From: an uncultured Actinomycetes bacterium
GTDB lineage: Bacteria; Actinomycetota; Thermoleophilia; Solirubrobacterales; 70-9
Length of the DNA: 64,000 nt
Assembly: GCA_946482365.1 (NCBI GenBank)
Contig: CAMLQY010000010.1
Span: 1-64,000, forward strand
Direction: 5' to 3'
In this document: positions 2 to 56,463 of the stretch, piece after piece
Layout: each line of letters starts with the position of its first letter
Position numbering within the stretch: the first letter of the stretch is position 1
The notes under the pieces: generated by a model
Database searches by the model: none
Told to the model about the DNA's origin: nothing
Seen by the model: only the letters and a program-made list of their open reading frames with translations
Program-made: the position numbers and the translations under genes

Positions 2-1120
2 CGCTCGGCCTCGGGCAGCTTCCGCGACGCGCTCGGCACGCTCGACCAGCTGGTCTCATACGGCGGCACCGAGGTCGAGCTCGGCGACGTGCTGGAGATG
101 CTGGGCGCGGCCGACGCCGAGCTGCTCTTCGACGCGGTCGACGCGGTCCTCGCCGAGGACCCGAAAGGCGTCCTGCTGGGGGTCGAGAAGATGGCGCGCT
201 CCGGCCGCGACCCCGCCCAGTTCGCCCGCGACCTGCTCGCCCACCTGCGCCACCTCCTCGTCACGCAGACCGTGGGCGAGGTGCCCAACACCTTCGTCGT
301 CACCGCAACCGACGCCGACCGCCTCAAAGCGCAAGCTGACGCGATAGGCGCCGCCACCCTCGTCCGCACCATCGACGAGCTGGCGAACGCGCTCACAGCT
401 GTCCGCGAGGGCGACGACGCCCGCATGGCAGTGGAGATCGCACTCCTAAAGGCGGCAAGGCCAGACCTAGACCCCTCCGCAGAGGGCCTACTTCGCAGGG
501 TTGAGAAGCTGGAGCGACGAGAGGCGGGCTTTGCCGCGGGTCCTGTCGCTGCAGGGGACCCACCGCCCCCTCCGGTCGCTAAAGCGTCCTCAGGGGCGGT
601 CCCCCCTACAGCGCCACCCGCGGAAGAGGCCGCCTCAGCTGACGAGCAAGCTCCCGATGAGGATGCCCAAGCTTCCGAGGGGGCAGAGCCCGCCGCTGAA
701 TCGCGAGCTGGGGAGGATTCCCCCGAGGCCGTGACGGGCCCCGCGGGCCAACACCCCCTCAGCCTGGAGGAGATCCAGCGAACATGGCCCGCTGTGCTGG
801 AGAAGCTGCGGGAGACGTCCCCGGCGCTCGCCGCGACCTTCGACGGCGCCAGGCCTGTCAGCTTGGACGAGGAGGGGCTGAAGGTCGGGTTCCCAGCCGA
901 GTTCACCTTCAACAAGAAGAAGGCGGAGACGCCGGAGAAGCGGGAGCTGATGGCCGACGCGATCGAGTCGGTGCTAGGGGAGAGGCTGCGGCCCACCTAC
1001 GTGCTGCTCGACGGAGAGCCCGCGACCGGGGGGGAGGCGAAAGCCTCTGGGGACGAGATCGATCACGATGCGCTGGTGGAGAAGCTGAAGAGCGAGTTCG
1101 ACGCGGAGGAGGTCGGTTAG
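2..1120 (+). CDS. dnaX: DNA polymerase III subunit gamma/tau, C-terminal part (5' end outside window)
   Basis: The clamp-loader ATPase subunit gamma/tau loads the sliding clamp and bridges the polymerase cores of the replisome. The reading frame is open from base 2 and begins in the AAA+ sensor-2 region (GSFRDALGTLDQ, a DnaX hallmark), so the N-terminal ATPase core lies upstream of the window. After the collar domain comes a Pro/Ala-rich linker (bases about 530-730), then a C-terminal domain resembling tau domain V with a KVGFP segment. The linker stretch at 536-613 is a copy of dispersed repeat R1, inserted in frame. The following ybaB starts one base after the TAG stop and recR follows: dnaX-ybaB-recR is a classical conserved order, which supports the call strongly. 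Confidence 0.93.
   Translation, partial: RSASGSFRDALGTLDQLVSYGGTEVELGDVLEMLGAADAELLFDAVDAVLAEDPKGVLLGVEKMARSGRDPAQFARDLLAHLRHLLVTQTVGEVPNTFVVTATDADRLKAQADAIGAATLVRTIDELANALTAVREGDDARMAVEIALLKAARPDLDPSAEGLLRRVEKLERREAGFAAGPVAAGDPPPPPVAKASSGAVPPTAPPAEEAASADEQAPDEDAQASEGAEPAAESRAGEDSPEAVTGPAGQHPLSLEEIQRTWPAVLEKLRETSPALAATFDGARPVSLDEEGLKVGFPAEFTFNKKKAETPEKRELMADAIESVLGERLRPTYVLLDGEPATGGEAKASGDEIDHDALVEKLKSEFDAEEVG
536..613 (-). repeat. R1 repeat, copy C (partial, inside dnaX)
   Basis: Read on the minus strand this is the hairpin end of repeat R1 plus its 12-bp terminal repeat (536-547). Three nested stems are visible: 548-557 with 603-612 (one wobble), 562-569 with 593-600 (perfect), and CGC/GCG at 577-586 around TAAA. 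It is translated as part of the DnaX linker without breaking the frame. The second terminal repeat is not present, so this is a partial element. Confidence 0.8.
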
Positions 1121-2975: not shown

Positions 2976-3815
2976 ATGCCGGGAATAAGAACCAACGCAG
3001 CTGCGGAAGTGCTGGGGGTCAGCCCCAACACGCTGCGCAGCTGGGAGCGCCGCTACGGCTACCCGACGCCGAAGCGCACCCAGGGCAACCACCGCAACTA
3101 CGAGCTGGTCGAGCTGCAGACCCTGCGCGACGCCCTCGCCCAGACCGGCAACATCTCCTCGGCGATCGAGCTGGCGCGCCAGCGCCAGGCCGCGCCGGCC
3201 AGCGACGAGGGCCTGCTGACCGCGCTGCATAGCTTCGACGAGGACGCCGCCGACCGCGCGATCGAGGAGAGCCTCGCCCTGCGCCCGCTGGAGCGCACGG
3301 TGGAGGAGCTGCTGTTGCCGGCGGTCGACCGCCTCGCCGCCGACCCGGACGCCGAGGCCGAGCTGGAGTTCGCCTCACGCTGGGCGACCGGCTGGCTGCA
3401 CGGCGCTCGCCGCCTCGCATCCGCCGCCTCCCGCCCGGCCGGGATCCTGCTGCTGGACTCCAGCAGCGGCTCCGACGCCGAGGCGGTCCATGTCCAGGCG
3501 CTCGACCTGACCCTGCGCCGCGCCGGCTTCCGCGTGCTGATGCTCTCCAACGAGCTCGGCGAGGAGCGGCTCGAGCGCGCCTTGGGCGCCCTCGACCCGA
3601 CCGCGATCGTCCTCTGCGGCCCCGGCGCCGACACCCCGAGCGCGGTCAAGCTGGTCCGCAAGATCCGCGAGGCCGGCTTCGACGCACCCCTCTTCGGCTT
3701 CCGCGCCACAGGCCTGATCGGCGACGCGGTCCCTTCGGCGGGAAGCAGCCCCAGCGAAGTGACCGGGATGCTCAACGCTGACCTGCGTCGCCGCGCCGCC
3801 CAGGCGTTCGCCTAG
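2976..3815 (+). CDS. MerR-family regulator with cobalamin-binding-like C-terminal domain
   Basis: A 279-residue transcription regulator with the architecture of CarH/LitR-type B12 photoreceptors. Residues 5-70 are a MerR winged helix (VLGVSPNTLRSWERRYGYP). Residues 80-145 form a helical bundle, and 155-245 a Rossmann-like B12-binding fold. His172 may be the counterpart of the lower axial cobalamin ligand, but the surrounding Glu and Gly of the usual ExHxxG motif are not in standard spacing. The Trp...Glu-His motif of the bundle reads ELEFASRW, without the histidine. B12 binding is therefore uncertain. ATG 2976 is preceded by AAGGAG at 2961-2966, a good ribosome binding site. No obvious target operator was identified. 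Confidence 0.82.
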   Translation: MPGIRTNAAAEVLGVSPNTLRSWERRYGYPTPKRTQGNHRNYELVELQTLRDALAQTGNISSAIELARQRQAAPASDEGLLTALHSFDEDAADRAIEESLALRPLERTVEELLLPAVDRLAADPDAEAELEFASRWATGWLHGARRLASAASRPAGILLLDSSSGSDAEAVHVQALDLTLRRAGFRVLMLSNELGEERLERALGALDPTAIVLCGPGADTPSAVKLVRKIREAGFDAPLFGFRATGLIGDAVPSAGSSPSEVTGMLNADLRRRAAQAFA

Positions 3816-3826
3816 CGCTTTCGGCC

Positions 3827-4063
3827 GCGGGTCCTGTCGCCGGGTGCGGGGGGTGCCCTGTTTGCGCTTCGCGCTGCTTCGGGCGTTCCCAGGGTTGAAA
3901 AGCTTTTCCAAGCCCGGCTCGGCTGCGGCGGCCTGCTGCTTCGATGGAAAAGCTTGGGTCTCCCGACCGTTACTCGCGGCGGGTGGCGCGGATTTGGGGG
4001 ACCACCCCGAGGAAGCTTTAGCTACCGCAGGGGTGGTGGCACCAAATCCGTGACAGGACCCGC
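3827..4063 (+). repeat. R1 repeat, copy A (237 bp, inverted terminal repeats)
   Basis: Intergenic element bounded by a perfect 12-bp inverted terminal repeat, GCGGGTCCTGTC (3827-3838) and GACAGGACCCGC (4052-4063). Its right part forms a nested hairpin: GGATTTGG 3990-3997 with CCAAATCC 4042-4049, ACCACCCC 4001-4008 with GGGGTGGT 4030-4037, and AGC-TTTA-GCT at 4014-4023. The left 80 bases closely match copy B at 23394. No open reading frame resembling a transposase is inside. It fills the gap between the MerR gene and the convergent MMPL gene. Confidence 0.85.
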
Positions 4064-4077
4064 CGCGCCTACCGCGC

Positions 4078-6210
4078 CTAGACCTTTTCGGGAACCACCG
4101 TCTCGCTGATCCCGATCCGCTCGTGCAGGCGCCGCAGCGGTGCGGGCGCCCACCAGTTCCATTTGCCGAGCAGCTCCATCAGGGATGGGACCAGGAGCGC
4201 CCGGACGATGCTGGCGTCGATCAGGACGGCCAGTGCCGTGCCGACTCCGTTCTCCTTGATGAAGATGATCTGCGAGGTGGCGAAGGCGCCGATCGCGATC
4301 GCGAAGAGCAGCGCCGCGGCGGTGACGATGCGGCCGGTGCGCTCGAGGCCGATCGCCACGCACTCGGAGTCCGAGGCGCCGTTGTCGCGCGCCTCCTTGA
4401 TCCTCGAGAGCAGGAAGACGGCGTAGTCGGTGGAGAGGCCGAAGGCGAGCGCGAAGAGCAGGATCGGCATCGTCTGCTCGATCGCGCCGGGGCTGGTGTA
4501 GTCGAGCAGCCCTTCCAGGCGGCCGTCCTGGAAGATCAGCACCAGCAGGCCGAAGACGGCGCTGAGGTTGAGGATGTTCATCAGCAGCGACTTGACCGGC
4601 AGCACCACCGAGCCGGTCATCAGGAAGAGGATGACCAGGGTGGCGACGACGATGATCGCGAAGGCGATCGGCAGGTGCCGGGTGAGGCTGGCTTGGAAGT
4701 CGACGAAGTCGGCGGTGGCGCCGGCGACCTGCACGGTCGCGCCGGGTGGCGCCTGCACGCCGCGGATCCGCTCGACCGTCGACTGGCTCGCCTCCGATGC
4801 GAAGGGGTTCGCCGAGACCGCCTGGATCACGGTGACGTCGCCCCGCAGGCGCCGCGGCGGCGCCACCGCGGCGACGCCCTCTGTGGCCCGGACCCGGGCC
4901 GCGAGCGCGGCCGCCCCCCTCGGTCCGCCCCCCTCGACCGCGATCCAGATCGGCGTCTCGCGGTAGGGCGGGAACTCCTCGCTGACCGTGTCGTACGCCT
5001 GCCGGGCGCTGGCGCTCTCGGGCAGGACGGTCGGGTCGACGGTGTTGAACTTGATCCCGAAGAAGGGCAGGCCGAGCACGATCAGGAAGAGGGCGCTGAG
5101 CGTCGCCACGGGCACCGGGCGGCGCATGACGAAGCGCGAGAGCCGGTACCAGAAGCCCTGTTCGTCAGGGCGCGCGTCGGCCTCGGCGCGGCGCTGCAGG
5201 GCGCGCGGGGCAAGCGAGTTGACGCGGGTCCCGAGCAGGGTGAGGACGGCGGGCAGGACGGTCAGCGCCACCGCCGCCGCGAGCAGCGCCACCAGCGAGC
5301 CGCCGAGGCCCATCGAGTAGAGGAAGCGCTGCGGGAAGACGAGCAGCGAGGCGAGCGCCGCGGCGACCGTCAGCGAGGAGAAGAAGACCGTGCGCCCGGC
5401 GGTCGCCATCACCCGCCGCATCGCGGCCAGGCCGGGACCGTCCACGGCGATCTCCTCGCGGTAGCGGGAGACGACGAAGAGGCTGTAGTCGATCGCCAGG
5501 CCGAGGCCGAGCCCGGTGGTGAGGTTGAGGGCGAAGATCGAGATCGAGCCGACTTCGCTGGCGAGGCGGAGGATGAGAAAGGTGCCGACGATCGCCAGCA
5601 GGCCGATCATCACTGGCAGCAACGCTGCGACGAGGCTGCGGAAGAAGAGGAAGGAGAGCAGGAAGAGCAGCGGGAAGGCGAGCATCTCGGCCGTGCGCAG
5701 GTCTTCCTCGACCTGCTTGTTGACCTGCTCCTGGGCGACGGCGGCGCCGCCGACGGTGACGCCGGGACGGTCGCCGAGGCGCTCGGCGATGTCGGCGCCC
5801 GCCTCCTGCCACTCCTTGTCGTCAGTCGGCTCGAGCGCCACCGCGAGGTAGGTCGCCTCGCCGTCGCGGGAGACGAAGTCGCGCGAGCGGGTGTCGTAGA
5901 AGCCGGTGACCGAGTGGACGTCGCCGCGGGCGCGCAGCTCCCGCTCGAGAGCGACGATGCGAGCCCGCGTCGCCGGCTCCGCGACCGGCGCGCCCTCGAC
6001 GACGACGATCACCCCGGGCACGCGGTGGCCGGCGTCCCGCAGCGCCTCCCGCGCCTGCACGGTCTCGGTCGCCGGGTCGTCGGCCCCGTAGGGGTCGAGC
6101 CGTTCGGCGACCGAGCCGCCGAGCGCGCCGGCGAGGAGGAAGAAGGCGATCGCGAGCAGGCCGACGCGGCGGGCGCGCCGGTCGGCGAGGCGGGCGAGGG
6201 CGTCGAACAT
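4078..6210 (-). CDS. MMPL/RND-family membrane transporter
   Basis: Large integral membrane exporter of the MMPL family (actinobacterial RND-type, usually lipids or hydrophobic compounds). The 710-residue protein has the duplicated layout: first TM near residue 20, an extracytoplasmic loop, a five-to-six TM block with GLGLGLAIDYSLFVVSRYREE, a second loop, and a second block with FALAFGLSTDYAVFLLSRIKE. The two D-Y motifs are the expected proton-relay positions. The open frame extends upstream to 6831, but that part is antisense to padR. ATG 6210 has AAGGAG just upstream and overlaps the padR stop as TGATG, so padR and the exporter form one coupled unit. Probably repressed by that PadR protein. 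Confidence 0.93.
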   Translation of the reverse strand: MFDALARLADRRARRVGLLAIAFFLLAGALGGSVAERLDPYGADDPATETVQAREALRDAGHRVPGVIVVVEGAPVAEPATRARIVALERELRARGDVHSVTGFYDTRSRDFVSRDGEATYLAVALEPTDDKEWQEAGADIAERLGDRPGVTVGGAAVAQEQVNKQVEEDLRTAEMLAFPLLFLLSFLFFRSLVAALLPVMIGLLAIVGTFLILRLASEVGSISIFALNLTTGLGLGLAIDYSLFVVSRYREEIAVDGPGLAAMRRVMATAGRTVFFSSLTVAAALASLLVFPQRFLYSMGLGGSLVALLAAAVALTVLPAVLTLLGTRVNSLAPRALQRRAEADARPDEQGFWYRLSRFVMRRPVPVATLSALFLIVLGLPFFGIKFNTVDPTVLPESASARQAYDTVSEEFPPYRETPIWIAVEGGGPRGAAALAARVRATEGVAAVAPPRRLRGDVTVIQAVSANPFASEASQSTVERIRGVQAPPGATVQVAGATADFVDFQASLTRHLPIAFAIIVVATLVILFLMTGSVVLPVKSLLMNILNLSAVFGLLVLIFQDGRLEGLLDYTSPGAIEQTMPILLFALAFGLSTDYAVFLLSRIKEARDNGASDSECVAIGLERTGRIVTAAALLFAIAIGAFATSQIIFIKENGVGTALAVLIDASIVRALLVPSLMELLGKWNWWAPAPLRRLHERIGISETVVPEKV

Positions 6211-6767
6211 CAGCTGCTCCTTTCGTCGGCGGCGGAGCCGAGGAGGCGTGTCTCCATCCGCTCGCACCAGTCTGCGAACCACTCGTTGAACTCGATCCCT
6301 CCCCGCAGCACCATCAGCGGGTAGGGGTCGCCCATCCCCTCCAGCTTCCCCTCGGCTCCGGGCTCCATCTCCCGCAACCGCTCGGCGAGGCCGAGCCGGT
6401 GCTCGCGCATCGCCCGCAGCGTCGCCGCCGCCCGCTCGGGGGGCAGCACGCCGGAGAAGAAGAGCTTCAGCAGCCCTTCTTCGCGCATCTCCGCCGTCTC
6501 CGGCGGCCGGCTCAGCCAGTCCTCCAGCGCCGCTTCGCCGCCGGCGGTGATCGCGTAGACGGTGCGCTTGCGCTCGCCGCGGGGGGCGTCGACCCCCTCG
6601 AGAAGGCCGGCATCGGCGAGCCGCTTCAGCTCCGGGTAGATCTGCCCGTAGCTGGCCGCCCAGAAGAACCGGGTCGTGTTGTCCACGATCGCCTTGATCT
6701 CGTAGCCCGAGCGCGGCTCGCGGCTGACCATGCCGAGGATCACGTAGGCGGTGGGACTGAGCTCCAT
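6210..6767 (-). CDS. PadR-family transcriptional regulator
   Basis: A 185-residue repressor-like protein. Residues 1-80 are the PadR winged helix (LSPTAYVILGMVSREPRSGYEIKAI, shown here only as a family landmark in parts: PTAYVILGMV and SGYEIK), with the wing RKRTVYAITAGG. The C-terminal half is the long helical Vir-like dimerisation domain. It is cotranscribed with, and presumably controls, the downstream MMPL exporter. ATG 6767 was preferred over a TTG two codons upstream. A perfect 7-bp inverted repeat lies 10 bases upstream of the ATG and is the natural candidate operator. The ligand is unknown. Confidence 0.92.
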   Translation of the reverse strand: MELSPTAYVILGMVSREPRSGYEIKAIVDNTTRFFWAASYGQIYPELKRLADAGLLEGVDAPRGERKRTVYAITAGGEAALEDWLSRPPETAEMREEGLLKLFFSGVLPPERAAATLRAMREHRLGLAERLREMEPGAEGKLEGMGDPYPLMVLRGGIEFNEWFADWCERMETRLLGSAADERSS

Positions 6768-6776
6768 GCGCAATAA

Positions 6777-6791
6777 ATCTATCAGATAGAT
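6777..6791. promoter_or_regulatory. Palindrome upstream of padR, candidate operator
   Basis: ATCTATC-A-GATAGAT is a perfect inverted repeat in the very AT-rich 40-bp gap between padR and the divergent small gene. Its place at the padR start suggests autoregulation. The sequence differs from the classical ATGT-N8-ACAT PadR site, so the assignment is inference. Confidence 0.5.
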
Positions 6792-6820
6792 ATATCAATG
6801 GGAGAGGTGCCGATCGCGTG

Positions 6821-6826
6821 TAGTCT
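6821..6826 (+). promoter_or_regulatory. -10 box TAGTCT of the 6837 gene
   Basis: TANNNT hexamer ending 10 nt before the ATG at 6837. This spacing matches the leaderless pattern seen across the window and favours 6837 over the in-frame ATG 6798. Confidence 0.5.
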
Positions 6827-6836
6827 GCCAAGGGCG

Positions 6837-8411: not shown

Positions 8412-8426
8412 TTCGCGGCGGTCGAG

Positions 8427-8464
8427 TGAACGATTTACCCACCTATACGGTGGTCAATCGTTCA
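8427..8464. repeat. R2 palindromic repeat, copy 1
   Basis: A 38-bp near-palindrome 15 nt after the lysC stop, differing from copy 3 (56405-56442) at only three positions. Arms read TGAACGATT...AATCGTTCA around a CCACCTATA centre. It could act as a terminator-like hairpin for lysC, but the same sequence recurs at unrelated loci. Confidence 0.8.
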
Positions 8465-8498
8465 GCCAGCGACCGAGCCCCTTCGTCATACTCGGCCC

Positions 8499-9530: not shown

Positions 9531-9594
9531 TCACCCGCTTGCTCGGCCATTCGTCCTGCACATTTTCGCGCGCCACGTGTAACATTTTGTCTGT

Positions 9595-9600
9595 TAGCGT
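9595..9600 (+). promoter_or_regulatory. -10 box TAGCGT with conserved upstream motif (paralogue 1)
   Basis: TAGCGT ends 8 nt before ATG 9609. The preceding bases (GTAACATTTTGTCTGT) are nearly identical before the paralogue at 10225 and partly so before 9963, pointing to a shared promoter type. Confidence 0.6.
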
Positions 9601-10142: not shown

Positions 10143-10209
10143 TCGGCCGAAGGTAGCTGGATCATTTGTCCGTCACACTTCCGTTCCCCACACGTAACAT
10201 TTTGTCCGC

Positions 10210-10215
10210 TAGCCT
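10210..10215 (+). promoter_or_regulatory. -10 box TAGCCT with conserved upstream motif (paralogue 3)
   Basis: Ends 9 nt before ATG 10225. The block CGTAACATTTTGTCCGC immediately upstream matches that of paralogue 1 almost base for base. Confidence 0.6.
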
Positions 10216-23382: not shown

Positions 23383-23393
23383 CGCTTCTGGCC

Positions 23394-23773
23394 GCGGGTC
23401 CTGTCGCCGGGGGTGGGGGGTGCCCTGCTTGCGCTCCGCGCTGCTTCGGGCAAAGGTGCGAAAGCGGGACTGACCTCGGAGCCCCGCCCTCAGCAGCCTC
23501 CGCGCGGCGCAGACACCCCCCACCCCCGACGCCACCCGCGGAGAGTCGGACAGTCAGGCACTGAGTAGCCTTCCGACCCGGGCAGCGTCTCCAGGGTTGA
23601 AGAGCTTTTCCACCCCAGTCCGCTGCGAGCTATCGATGCTTGTCGGGAGCTTCGGATCTGTGGCGCTGCCCTGGGACGTCCCTCGCGGGGGGTGGCGTCG
23701 TAGGGGGAACCGCCCCCGAGGACGCTTTAGCGACCGGAGGGGGTGGTGGGTCCCCTACGGCGACAGGACCCGC
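23394..23773 (+). repeat. R1 repeat, copy B (380 bp, inverted terminal repeats)
   Basis: Same perfect 12-bp terminal repeats as copy A (23394-23405 and 23762-23773). The nested hairpin is CGTAGGGG 23699-23706 with CCCCTACG 23752-23759, ACCGCCCCC 23709-23717 with GGGGGTGGT 23739-23747 (one wobble), and CGC-TTTA-GCG at 23723-23732. The segment around 23592 (AGGGTTGAAGAGCTTTTCCA) matches 3891-3910 of copy A with one change. The right end CAGGACCCGCCGCGCCAGCGAC is duplicated at 23797-23818. Confidence 0.85.
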
Positions 23774-23834
23774 CGCGCCAGCGACTTTGGCAGTACAGGA
23801 CCCGCCGCGCCAGCGACCTCGGGGGCAAGCTGGC

Positions 23835-26659: not shown

Positions 26660-28255
26660 ATGGAGGCCGCCGGCGCGCTGGGCAGGCGCGGCCTGTCGAG
26701 CTATCTGGAGGTGGCGCGGGACCTGGTGCGCTCCCGGTCGCGCGCCTTCTGGATCGTCGCCGGGCTGACCGCCGTCGCGGCGCTGCTCCGCTTCGCGACC
26801 CTCGGCCTGCAGAGCTACCACCACGACGAGATCGTCACCGCCAGCCGCGTCCTCCGCGGCAGCTTCTGGCACGCGATGGACGCGGTCGGGTTCAGCGAGT
26901 CGGCTCCGCCGCTCTACTACGCCGCCGCCTGGCTCTGGACCCAGGCGATCGGGACCGGCGAGGTCGGCCTGCGCTCGCTCTCGGCGCTGGCCGGCGTAGC
27001 CACGGTGCCGGTCGCCTTCCTGATCGGCCGAAGCCTGAGGTTGAGCGCCGGTGGATCGATTGACCACCCTATGGAGGGGTCAATCGATCAGCGGGCGCAA
27101 CGAGTGGGGATCGTGGCGGCGGCGCTGGTCGCGGTCAACCCGATGCTGATCTGGTACTCGCAGGAGGCGCGCGCCTACGCCCTGCTGGCGCTGCTCACCT
27201 CGCTCTCGCTGCTCTACTTCATCCGCGGTCTCGAGCACGGCCGCCGCCGCGACCTCACGCTCTGGGGCCTGGTCTCGGGCCTCGCCCTGGCGACGCACTA
27301 CTTCGCGGTCTTCCCGATCGTCGCCGAGGCCGCCTGGCTGCTCTACCGCCGGCGCCGGGAGGTGGCTCGCGGCCTCGCCGTCCTCGCCGCCTTCGGCCTC
27401 GCCCTGGCGCCGCTGGCGATTCACCAGATGTCCTACGGACATGCCGAGTGGATCTCGAGCTTCACGCTCGGGCACCGCCTCTGGGAGATCGGGGTGACCT
27501 TCACGGTGGGGGAGACCGGCGACGTCATCGCCCGCCCCGAGCGGCCGCTGCTGGCGCTGGTGCCGGTGGTCGCGATCGCGGCATCGCTCTTCCTCCTCGC
27601 CTGGCGGGGAAGCCGCGCCGAGCGCCGCGCGGCAGGCCCGCCGCTGGCGGTCGCGGCGGCCACCGTCGGGATCCCGCTGGCGCTCGCCCTGCTCGCCTCC
27701 GGCAAGGACTACGTCCTCGCTCGCAACCTGCTGCCGGCCCTGCCGCCGCTTCTGGTCGTAGTCGCGATCGGCCTCACCCTGCGCCGTGCCCGCCGCACCG
27801 GTGCGGTCGTGGGGACTGTGCTGGTCGCCTACTCGCTCGGCTTCTCGGTTTGGGCCGCCGTCACCCCGGCCCTGCAGCGCCCCGACTGGGAGGCCGTCGC
27901 GTCCGCCCTGGGCGAGCCCGACACGCCGCGGGCGATGGTCACCTGGACGATCGGCGAGGCCTCGCTCCGCTACTACCTCTCGACCGGCTCCCTGCAGGCC
28001 CGGCCCTCCGAAGGCTTCGAGTGGTGGGTGGGGGAGGTCGACTTCATCTCCGACGGCCCCGCCCCGCCGCCCGCGCGGCAACTGCTCGGCCCGGGCTTCA
28101 GGCAGGCCGGGTACGAGCGGGTGGGGCGCCTCTACGTGCGCCTCTACGTGCGCACCGGGCCGGGGCTGGTGCCGCTGCGGTTGCGAGCCCTGCGCAGCGC
28201 CGACCTCAACTTCCGCACCAATGGCGTGCTGCTCGACGGCGTCAGCGTCCAGTGA
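26660..28255 (+). CDS. Membrane glycosyltransferase of the ArnT/PMT (GT39/GT83-like) fold
   Basis: Polytopic GT-C-type transferase of 531 residues using a polyprenyl-phosphate sugar donor. The first periplasmic loop has HHDEIVTASR, with the Asp-Glu pair expected at the catalytic site. About ten further hydrophobic helices follow, with NPMLIWYSQEARAY typical of the family, then a soluble C-terminal part. Residues 132-144 (GSIDHPMEGSIDQ) are encoded by a copy of repeat R2, in a cytoplasmic or periplasmic loop between helices, without frame disruption. Acceptor unknown: protein, lipid or cell-wall glycan. ATG 26660 is two bases past the lon stop. Confidence 0.87.
   Translation: MEAAGALGRRGLSSYLEVARDLVRSRSRAFWIVAGLTAVAALLRFATLGLQSYHHDEIVTASRVLRGSFWHAMDAVGFSESAPPLYYAAAWLWTQAIGTGEVGLRSLSALAGVATVPVAFLIGRSLRLSAGGSIDHPMEGSIDQRAQRVGIVAAALVAVNPMLIWYSQEARAYALLALLTSLSLLYFIRGLEHGRRRDLTLWGLVSGLALATHYFAVFPIVAEAAWLLYRRRREVARGLAVLAAFGLALAPLAIHQMSYGHAEWISSFTLGHRLWEIGVTFTVGETGDVIARPERPLLALVPVVAIAASLFLLAWRGSRAERRAAGPPLAVAAATVGIPLALALLASGKDYVLARNLLPALPPLLVVVAIGLTLRRARRTGAVVGTVLVAYSLGFSVWAAVTPALQRPDWEAVASALGEPDTPRAMVTWTIGEASLRYYLSTGSLQARPSEGFEWWVGEVDFISDGPAPPPARQLLGPGFRQAGYERVGRLYVRLYVRTGPGLVPLRLRALRSADLNFRTNGVLLDGVSVQ
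27053..27090. repeat. R2 palindromic repeat, copy 2 (in frame inside the glycosyltransferase gene)
   Basis: Perfect 12-bp arms GATCGATTGACC (27054-27065) and GGTCAATCGATC (27078-27089). The 38-bp unit plus one base gives 13 codons, and the flanking family sequence resumes in frame. Confidence 0.8.
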
Positions 28256-56104: not shown

Positions 56105-56407
56105 GTGCCCATCTACGAGTACAAGTGCGAGAAAGGCCACGTCTTCGACGTGATCCAGCGGATGAGCGACGAGGCGCTCAGCAAGTGCCAGGAGTGCGGC
56201 GCCCCCGCGGAACGCGTCCTGCACCCCGTCGCCGTCCACTTCAAGGGCTCCGGCTTCTACAACACCGACTACGGCAAGAAGAAGAAGGGCGGGGCCAACG
56301 GCGCTTCCGGTGAGGGTTCCGGCGACTCGAAGCCCTCCGAGTCGAAGTCGGGCGAGTCGAAGTCCTCCGCCGACTCCAAGCCCAAGGCGACCGCCACCAG
56401 CGAGTGA
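56105..56407 (+). CDS. FmdB-family zinc-ribbon protein
   Basis: A 100-residue protein with the FmdB putative regulatory zinc ribbon at the N-terminus: VPIYEYKCEKGHVFD and KCQECGAPAERVLHPV provide Cys/His ligands, followed by the family end HFKGSGFYNTDYGKKKK. The remaining 40 residues are a low-complexity Ser/Lys/Glu tail. Function in bacteria is unknown. The GTG start is divergent from glyS. The TGA stop coincides with the first three bases of repeat R2 copy 3, so the element was inserted or conserved exactly at the gene end. Confidence 0.87.
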   Translation: MPIYEYKCEKGHVFDVIQRMSDEALSKCQECGAPAERVLHPVAVHFKGSGFYNTDYGKKKKGGANGASGEGSGDSKPSESKSGESKSSADSKPKATATSE

Positions 56408-56442
56408 ACTATTGACCCACCTATAGGGTGGTCAATCGTTCA
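56405..56442. repeat. R2 palindromic repeat, copy 3
   Basis: 38 bp, 35 identical to copy 1 at 8427. Starts with the TGA stop of the FmdB-type gene and includes a GTG that would otherwise be read as an early start of the next gene. Confidence 0.82.
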
Positions 56443-56463
56443 GTCGACGTTCGCGGAGGCGAG

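Follow-up and report, generated by a model that had tools for sequence, protein, structure and literature searches.

What is the mobile unit of a repeat whose copies share perfect inverted ends, and how does it spread? The question was raised by the first 64,000 nt of contig CAMLQY010000010.1 of an uncultured Solirubrobacterales bacterium (GCA_946482365.1), here called the window. A first-pass annotation had described two copies of a dispersed element there, A (3827 to 4063) and B (23394 to 23773), each as one element bounded by a perfect 12-bp terminal inverted repeat and ending in a three-tier hairpin, and a third, C, as a copy that kept the hairpin and one terminal repeat.

The unit and its ends in the window

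The 12-mer GCGGGTCCTGTC was present with 0 mismatches at five sites, namely, 536 to 547, 3827 to 3838, and 23394 to 23405 on the plus strand and 4052 to 4063 and 23762 to 23773 on the minus strand. Thus, every site of the repeat was as exact as described, but it does not mark the two ends of one element: A and B each consist of two neighboring hairpins in opposite orientation, one of them truncated in A, and the 12-bp terminal inverted repeat is therefore a pair of outward-facing right ends. The unit is a single hairpin, 93 to 94 nt long in the window's three model matches, with two unlike ends, a left end that reads GCGGGTGGCG or close to it and a right end that reads CGACAGGACCCGC or close to it. 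Copy C is a whole single element and not a remnant, because its other end is GCGGGTGGCG. The three-tier hairpins in A, B, and C were upheld by their folding energies (Table 1), and the stem arms differ between the window copies as the annotation had quoted, including AGC-TTTA-GCT versus CGC-TTTA-GCG.

Table 1. Elements and neighboring genes in the window. Fold z values of the three-tier hairpins are against 200 shuffles each; the cmsearch values are not independent of the covariance model, which was built from 36 copies (the 3 window copies and 33 elsewhere).
Feature	Positions	Strand	Evidence
dnaX (DNA polymerase III gamma/tau), C-terminal portion, into which copy C is inserted	2..1120	+	PF12169 E 2.4e-18, PF20964 E 1.1e-9
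Copy C: complete 94-nt hairpin element, in-frame in dnaX	532..625	-	cmsearch 106.6 bits, E 8.8e-21; fold z -5.8; translation
MerR-type regulator gene	2976..3815	+	PF00376/PF13411, ORF; stops 7 nt before copy A left piece
Copy A left piece: B1-type element cut short, with the right end (3827-3838) and ~46 nt more; source of A's left terminal repeat	3823..3884	-	93-94% identity over 60-62 nt to 23390-23451
Copy A right piece: hairpin element, complete at 93 nt	3975..4067	+	cmsearch 93.5 bits, E 6.4e-18; fold z -5.2; ORFs
MMPL transporter gene	4078..6831	-	PF03176 E 9.8e-84, ORF; 10 nt separate copy A from its 3' end
Copy B left piece (B1): hairpin element of 154 nt, same ends, unrelated interior	23390..23543	-	fold -99 kcal/mol, z -4.6
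Copy B right piece (B2): hairpin element, complete at 94 nt	23684..23777	+	cmsearch 103.0 bits, E 5.5e-20; fold z -5.2
Near-tandem duplication, right end plus flank (ACAGGACCCGCCGCGCCAGCGACyTyGG twice)	23763..23822	+	direct reading

Copy C lies in the dnaX linker preceding DnaX_C and reads, on the host strand and in the dnaX frame, as AGPVAAGDPPPPPVAKASSGAVPPTAPPA. The right piece of copy A sits between the 3' ends of two convergent genes, one for a MerR-type regulator and one for an MMPL transporter. B1 resembles elements of another genome, G048, with 73 to 77% identity over 154 to 161 nt to L188, L189, L191, and L194, and the near-tandem duplication near B2 supplies a second copy of the end at 23794 to 23805 with one mismatch. 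A and B also have a spacer of about 45 nt in common at 80% identity, and the hairpin pair may thus once have been copied together.

Two further kinds of repeat were encountered in the window. One is a second dispersed palindrome, near TGAACGATTGACC-ACC-TAT-GGT-GGTCAATCGTTCA, with three copies (8423 to 8465, 27049 to 27091, and 56401 to 56443) that are 72 to 93% alike, fold at -18 to -22 kcal/mol, and may represent an operator or a different family of repeats. The other is a 58-nt direct repeat at 9541 to 9598 and 10156 to 10213, 74% alike and containing TGTAACATTTTGTC or close to it, possibly a shared promoter or operator.

Elsewhere, the ends were constant and the interiors were not. Base pairing between the end boxes GCGGGTGGCG and CGACAGGACCCGC runs through GCGGGT/ACCCGC and flanks an asymmetric internal loop. 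The 33 low-scoring model matches that were examined kept these ends, many with unrelated hairpins between them. A scan of the retrieved loci for the two ends yielded 178 nonredundant elements with length modes of 74, 83, and 86 nt, the interiors of which fell into 36 clusters (the largest with 59, 43, and 24 members), an upper bound because some long elements are chance pairings of ends. Several long "elements" in this set, such as L145, L147, L160, and L204, join ends by chance or across neighbors. The hairpins are mostly 74 to 94 nt and reach about 154 nt, the extremes at the small end being an ends-only copy (L201) and a copy of 55 nt (L037). Moreover, the interior at a given site can differ between related genomes: L077 in genome G045 and L124 in G039 have aligned flanks, conserved ends, and different interiors, and the same was found at a second site for L079 (G045) and L081 (G039). 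We conclude that the unit combines constant ends with changeable hairpin interiors.

Solo right ends (...GCGACAGGACCCGC...), near which no left end or hairpin was found, occurred at L216, L225, L228, and L229. These may be deletion remnants or an alternative minimal form, and L225 lies at a contig end.

Distribution, insertion sites, and reading frames

An exact core pattern matched 34 stretches in a collection of 84,980 species, 33 of them in seven metagenome-assembled genomes (MAGs) labeled Solirubrobacterales, Actinomycetota, or Thermoleophilia, all seven of which are among the 50 genomes of one family, assigned to the Solirubrobacterales from the record titles. The remaining stretch, L033 from an Opitutaceae genome, was a chance match and was dropped before model building, such that 36 of the 37 core matches (33 loci and the 3 window copies) entered the model. 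The covariance-model search that the first-pass annotation had suggested found further copies in 11 of the 50 family genomes at an E value of ≤1e-7, with 25, 23, 11, 10, 7, 5, 5, 3, 3, 2, and 2 matches per carrier; the other 39 genomes had none under these stricter filters. The four richest carriers were G001, G004, G045, and G006. The genomes with titles are draft MAGs, and the genomes come without quality figures.

The right end CGACAGGACCCGC alone was more widespread, occurring 148 times in 27 of the 50 family genomes, compared with 20 occurrences of the reversed pattern. Across the whole order, 92 of 232 genomes matched the right-end pattern, and in the 182 order genomes outside the family there were 88 matches versus 119 for the control, which indicates that matches there are background. 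Exceptions were G083 and G217, with 8 and 5 right-end matches, respectively. In G083, which lies within the order and outside the main family, two of the four sites examined were clear two-ended palindromes (L202 and L203), a possible sign of horizontal spread or of deeper ancestry. The exact core pattern had no match in IMG/VR viral contigs (one scan) or in the Rickettsia contigs of the 84,980-species collection, and Rfam at gathering thresholds had no match over the 64-kb window. We conclude that the element family is found almost only in one Solirubrobacterales family, a group of soil bacteria.

Identical or near-identical interiors were present at unrelated loci in G045 and G039. The interiors of L072 and L073 are identical, and those of L074 and L075 and of L066 and L081 are identical save the outermost variable pair. 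Interiors that match exactly at separate loci imply that the element spread recently, and mobility was inferred from such paralogues together with presence and absence between species at roughly 75 to 90% identity. One loop of an Lhr-type helicase, for example, holds a 94-nt type of element in G045 and a 100-nt type in G001, whereas nothing but a short variable loop is present there in G039, G005, G003, G006, G002, G043, and G042; loop-length variation blurs the insertion junctions. A proposed orthology between contig C93 of G001 (L108) and window copy B failed on alignment. The annotation's description of a dispersed, mobile, and nonautonomous repeat is therefore borne out by the many copies across the family genomes and by their identical interiors at different loci, with mobility as an inference.

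The hunt for target duplications, also suggested in the first-pass annotation, found no direct duplication beyond self-complementary words at the ends of 175 copies. Direct repeats of 3 bp were below the null expectation, and those of 5 to 15 bp were absent. Repeats exceeded the null only at 2 bp (63 copies, 36% versus 18%) and at 4 bp (14 copies, 8% versus 0.7%), and 61 of the 63 2-bp repeats and all 14 of the 4-bp repeats were self-complementary words such as CG or CGCG. The excess therefore reflects palindromic flanks themselves rather than direct target duplication. Consistent with palindromic flanks, the 3 bp outside the ends were copy-specific inverted complements at 88, 90, and 70% of copies, versus null values of 40, 56, and 40%, and all three outer base pairs were complementary in 106 of the 175 copies. 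The target may have been palindromic beforehand or may have been made palindromic on insertion, and both are compatible with the 3-bp flanks. Long inverted flanks as a general feature were dropped, as z was 10 to 14 at the first 3 bp, 4.4 at position 7 (47% versus 32%), and at most 3 at the rest; longer inverted flanks were seen in the single copies L007, L008, and L011.

Many copies lie within genes. Of 170 copies with enough flank, 60 were inside genes open on both sides, a call that, like the stop-codon test, rests on codon-position composition and not on annotation and a number that includes orthologues and does not count 60 independent events. Register 0 was used by 49 of these 60 (27 plus, 22 minus), and 5 of the 11 others belong to a single site in an MMPL gene. 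The other 110 copies comprised 22 with coding sequence on both sides in differing frames, 87 classed as other, and 1 with an internal stop. In both orientations, register 0 reads as a bland linker, either AGGAVGGTAPEEALATGGGGGSPAATGPA-like or AGPVAAGDPPPPPVAKASSGAVPPTAPPA-like, with predicted peptides such as AGPVAAGDPPPP... or AGGAVGG.... One register open in both directions that encodes a bland linker would explain why the element is tolerated in genes.

The host genes are conserved ones. In a dnaX survey of 31 stretches (30 loci and the window), 21 of which had a readable linker, the dnaX linker bore the element peptide in the window, G045, G039, G004 (two), G044, and G002. Copies were also carried by genes for E2 acyltransferase, where L119 and L063 have them on both sides of the E3_binding domain, by GMP synthase genes near the gene start (GATase and GMP_synt_C in L074), and by Lhr-type helicase genes in two loops. 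We conclude that the element often lies in-frame within important genes and leaves them unbroken. Among nongene copies, 38 of 58 with a gene reading toward the right edge follow its stop codon at 0 to 40 nt, as judged roughly from composition, and the left-edge counterpart was 7 of 22 within 40 nt.

Other palindromes were met at the same places. In L248, L249, and L250 (G044, G040, and G041), the same helicase loop is occupied by palindromes whose ends are quite unlike those described here and which fold at -40 to -59 kcal/mol, and pieces similar to the L250 palindrome occur in dnaX of G041 and G040 (L160 and L162). L248 to L250 may represent further families of coding palindromes. The dnaX linker of G011, G008, G018, and G021 (L168, L172, L174, and L175) holds another in-frame palindrome family with a GTPGEVRP core, the stems of which differ in a paired way between genomes and the core of which occurs twice in L168.

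Pairing of the arms and strand asymmetry

The first-pass annotation had proposed that compensatory change in the stems reflects selection on structure. In 84 aligned copies (81 distinct), 97.5% of the pair cells could pair, compared with 83.9% when partners were shuffled and 39 to 51% when partners were slid, although the copies are related and were aligned to a model with this structure built in, which favors pairing. Changes on both sides of a pair occurred at 20 of 31 pairs and in 283 cells, versus 76 after shuffling and at most 40 in the slid controls, and none of 500 shuffles of the 81 distinct copies reached the observed pairing values. Thus, further copies exist, their pairing is better than expected, and structural constraint is supported.

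Pairing was also tested in situ, at sites where related genomes carry the element. At the site in the MMPL gene (PF03176 in L014), five genomes have an element, and five of eight variable pairs had changed on both sides; 95% of cells paired versus 73% after shuffling, and 1 of 2,000 shuffles was as good. The site in the GMP synthase gene (guaA) was a weak test with three copies only (89% paired versus 78% shuffled; 54 of 2,000 shuffles as good). We conclude that orthologous elements at one site have kept their pairing while changing sequence.

Mismatches were strand asymmetric. In Watson-Crick columns, G.T was found 72 times and A.C 16 times with related copies counted, and a count by column was only 18 versus 14, which indicates that shared descent contributes to the 72:16 ratio. 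Sorted by placement, with one column left out, G.T to A.C was 15:1 in minus-wise in-gene copies, 12:5 in plus-wise in-gene copies, 36:8 in others, and 9:2 in unassigned copies. In minus-wise in-gene copies, the host mRNA carries the other strand of the element, yet the excess of G.T was present there too. Moreover, the plus strand had the lower minimum free energy (MFE) in 155 of the 178 elements and in 25 of 36 clusters. Counted by cluster type, the G.T bias was weaker, at 25 versus 16. The unpaired bases GG, ACAGG, and those beside the tip were conserved. We take the G.T excess to mean that the plus strand of the element itself folds, as single-stranded DNA (ssDNA) or RNA, and not the host mRNA.

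Mobilization and related systems

If the elements are moved in trans, a mobilizing gene might track the carriers, and four families were sought in the 50 family genomes. Y1_Tnp (PF01797) was found in 3 of the 50 genomes and in none of the 11 carriers, Transposase_20 of IS110 (PF02371) in 9 genomes and 3 carriers, and the reverse transcriptase RVT_1 (PF00078) in 6 genomes and 2 carriers; the IS91-type Y2_Tnp was found in one genome and no carrier, a family that also matched none of its 14 control genomes. None of the four was found in G001, G004, G045, or G006, the genomes with the most matches. Origins of the REP/RAYT, IS110, reverse transcriptase, and IS91 types were therefore set aside, as the families do not track the carriers among the 50 genomes searched for each. 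Draft MAGs lose transposons, and absence of a mobilizer is thus weak evidence in any one genome but consistent among them. Likewise, no transposase was found between the outward right ends of 11 distinct pairs 300 to 4,000 nt apart in the retrieved loci. The five longest frames scanned in L081 and L089, the two longer pairs from outside the window, matched no Pfam family, none of the shorter pairs encloses a frame of more than 107 amino acids, and one window pair spans ordinary genes. The scan covered outward right-end pairs; a further 123 left-right pairs lie at 300 to 4,000 nt, many of them by chance.

The annotation had likened the repeat to a MITE or a structured REP-type repeat, and neither likeness was supported. 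A classical MITE would have as its unit the whole composite of 237 or 380 nt, bounded by two right ends that face outward, with perfect terminal inverted repeats of 12 to 13 bp and a DDE transposase acting in trans. The B1 fragment (93%), spacer (80% over 45 nt), and hairpin shared by A and B are consistent with such a unit, as are further outward right-end pairs, e.g., in G012 C106, G022 C13, G006 C101, and G048 C99, and a transposase gene bounded by GCGGGTCCTGTCG...CGACAGGACCCGC would favor it. We nevertheless consider a MITE improbable: the inverted repeat comes from two side-by-side elements, many copies are single hairpins, the spacer in two pairs (L063 and L119) is host coding sequence for the E3-binding domain of E2 acyltransferase, the 175 copies had no direct duplication besides self-complementary words, and none of the 11 outward pairs in the retrieved loci showed a transposase. 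Very improbable in turn is a REP/BIME-type repeat or a derivative of IS200/IS605 moved as ssDNA by a Y1 (HUH) transposase. The hairpin with no ordinary target duplication, the strand-asymmetric mismatches, the oppositely oriented pairs, and the position at gene 3' ends would all suit such a repeat, but the typical unit of 74 to 94 nt or more is longer than REPs and often intragenic, the Y2_Tnp search pointed to no carrier (with the same blank result in its controls), and the reading fails because Y1 transposases are absent from the 11 carriers.

That the repeats are not mobile and are cis-acting RNA structures, such as terminators or mRNA stabilizers, that arose repeatedly at gene ends seems barely credible: the 38 of 58 nongene copies shortly past a stop codon (by the rough composition call) and copy A between convergent genes fit the proposal, whereas identical interiors at unrelated loci, in-frame copies in dnaX, E2, GMP synthase, Lhr-type helicase, and MMPL genes, a plus-strand G.T bias even where the mRNA carries the minus strand, and a window without an Rfam match do not. 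A tentative case can be made for mutation bias in place of selection, in which template switching during replication (quasipalindrome correction) would copy one arm onto the other and turn flanks into inverted repeats. Such switching would account for the 3-bp copy-specific inverted flanks, for the longer ones in L007, L008, and L011, and for pairing kept at one site after insertion, the last of which counts against our own explanation, since pairing would not be expected to persist if the structure served movement alone. Template switching has been proposed for mitochondrial coding palindromes in a section of PMC6649704. However, a process in duplex DNA should give G.T and A.C in about equal numbers, and 72:16 was observed; moreover, the internal loops (GG/ACAGG and others beside the tip) have stayed imperfect and uncorrected.

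We conclude that the repeats are probably nonautonomous mobile coding palindromes with swappable interiors that fold as single strands and are moved in trans. The unit would be a hairpin with constant ends, a variable palindromic interior, and 3 copy-specific complementary base pairs outside. A putative trans-acting activity would recognize the ends, most likely once the plus strand of the element has folded as single-stranded DNA or RNA, and insert copies at the 3' ends of genes and in linkers rich in Ala, Pro, and Gly, and interiors may be exchanged between copies through the shared ends. We put forward as doubtful the further reading that the elements form a minimal mobile element class, defined by fixed end boxes, an exchangeable hairpin body, recognition as a folded single strand, a 3-bp inverted target match, and palindromic bodies swapped between sites. 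In integrons, attC sites consist of a variable terminal hairpin enclosed by short constant boxes that pair, and they are recognized as a folded single strand. The elements may work like attC, with paired end boxes and a variable hairpin; the box sequences are unlike the attC consensus, and we do not file them as attC members.

The nearest known way of life is that of the Rickettsia palindromic elements (RPEs), a likeness drawn by description and not by sequence comparison. As described in parts of PMC2229807 and PMC10969869, RPEs are palindromic repeats of about 100 to 150 bp, with several families per genome, that lie between genes and in-frame within genes for conserved proteins and for which target duplication is listed as "?"; a part of PMC6649704 adds that their repeat identity is lost over time. 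The elements here are likewise multicopy palindromes (up to 25 model matches per genome), somewhat shorter at mostly 74 to 94 nt, and likewise insert in-frame in conserved genes (register 0 in 49 of 60). They differ in belonging to another phylum, in having constant ends around often unrelated interiors, in their maintained pairing (97.5%), and in that one site can hold different interiors.

Other small palindromes share single traits. Sections of PMC2229807 present YPAL/RU-2 and ERIC of enterobacteria as small palindromic mobile repeats with in-frame fusions, list target duplication for both, and place YPAL targets across or next to dyad symmetry; the 3-bp palindromic flanks here may indicate similar dyad-symmetry targets. 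REPs, in the portion of PMC3733652 that deals with them, are 20 to 40 bp long with an unpaired GTAG/CGTC tag at one end and a RAYT, and GTAG/CGTC REPs form hairpins that follow coding regions and in some cases lie within genes for replication, with units often opposed. Our elements resemble REPs and BIMEs in forming hairpins 3' of genes or in replication genes and in their opposed pairs but differ in that the 94-nt unit has no tagged form of 20 to 40 bp and the carriers have no Y1 transposase. The coding palindromes of nematomorph mitochondria, as part of PMC6649704 describes them, are long, lie inside functional genes, and have arms that evolve together; those are perfect repeats, whereas the elements here keep imperfect internal loops and constant ends. 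In-frame palindromic mobile elements have thus been published for Rickettsia, and the relevant part of PMC2229807 also names Neisseria, enterobacterial, and archaeal cases. A literature search on repeats, palindromes, and in-frame insertions in Solirubrobacter, Solirubrobacterales, Thermoleophilia, and Actinobacteria gave no paper on this element among the matches listed.

A way of life like that of RPEs is now seen in another phylum, with pairing that is measurably kept and interiors that change between constant ends at unchanged sites. Two questions can thereby be put to the test: which activity mobilizes the elements, given that no known transposase follows their distribution, and whether mobile hairpins give rise to linkers of central proteins, as in DnaX and E2 acyltransferase. 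For annotation, the length and sequence of linkers in these genomes should be taken as partly mobile DNA. If the minimal-element reading is true, the genomes of this family would carry a pool of interchangeable coding hairpins that serve as evolving protein linkers.
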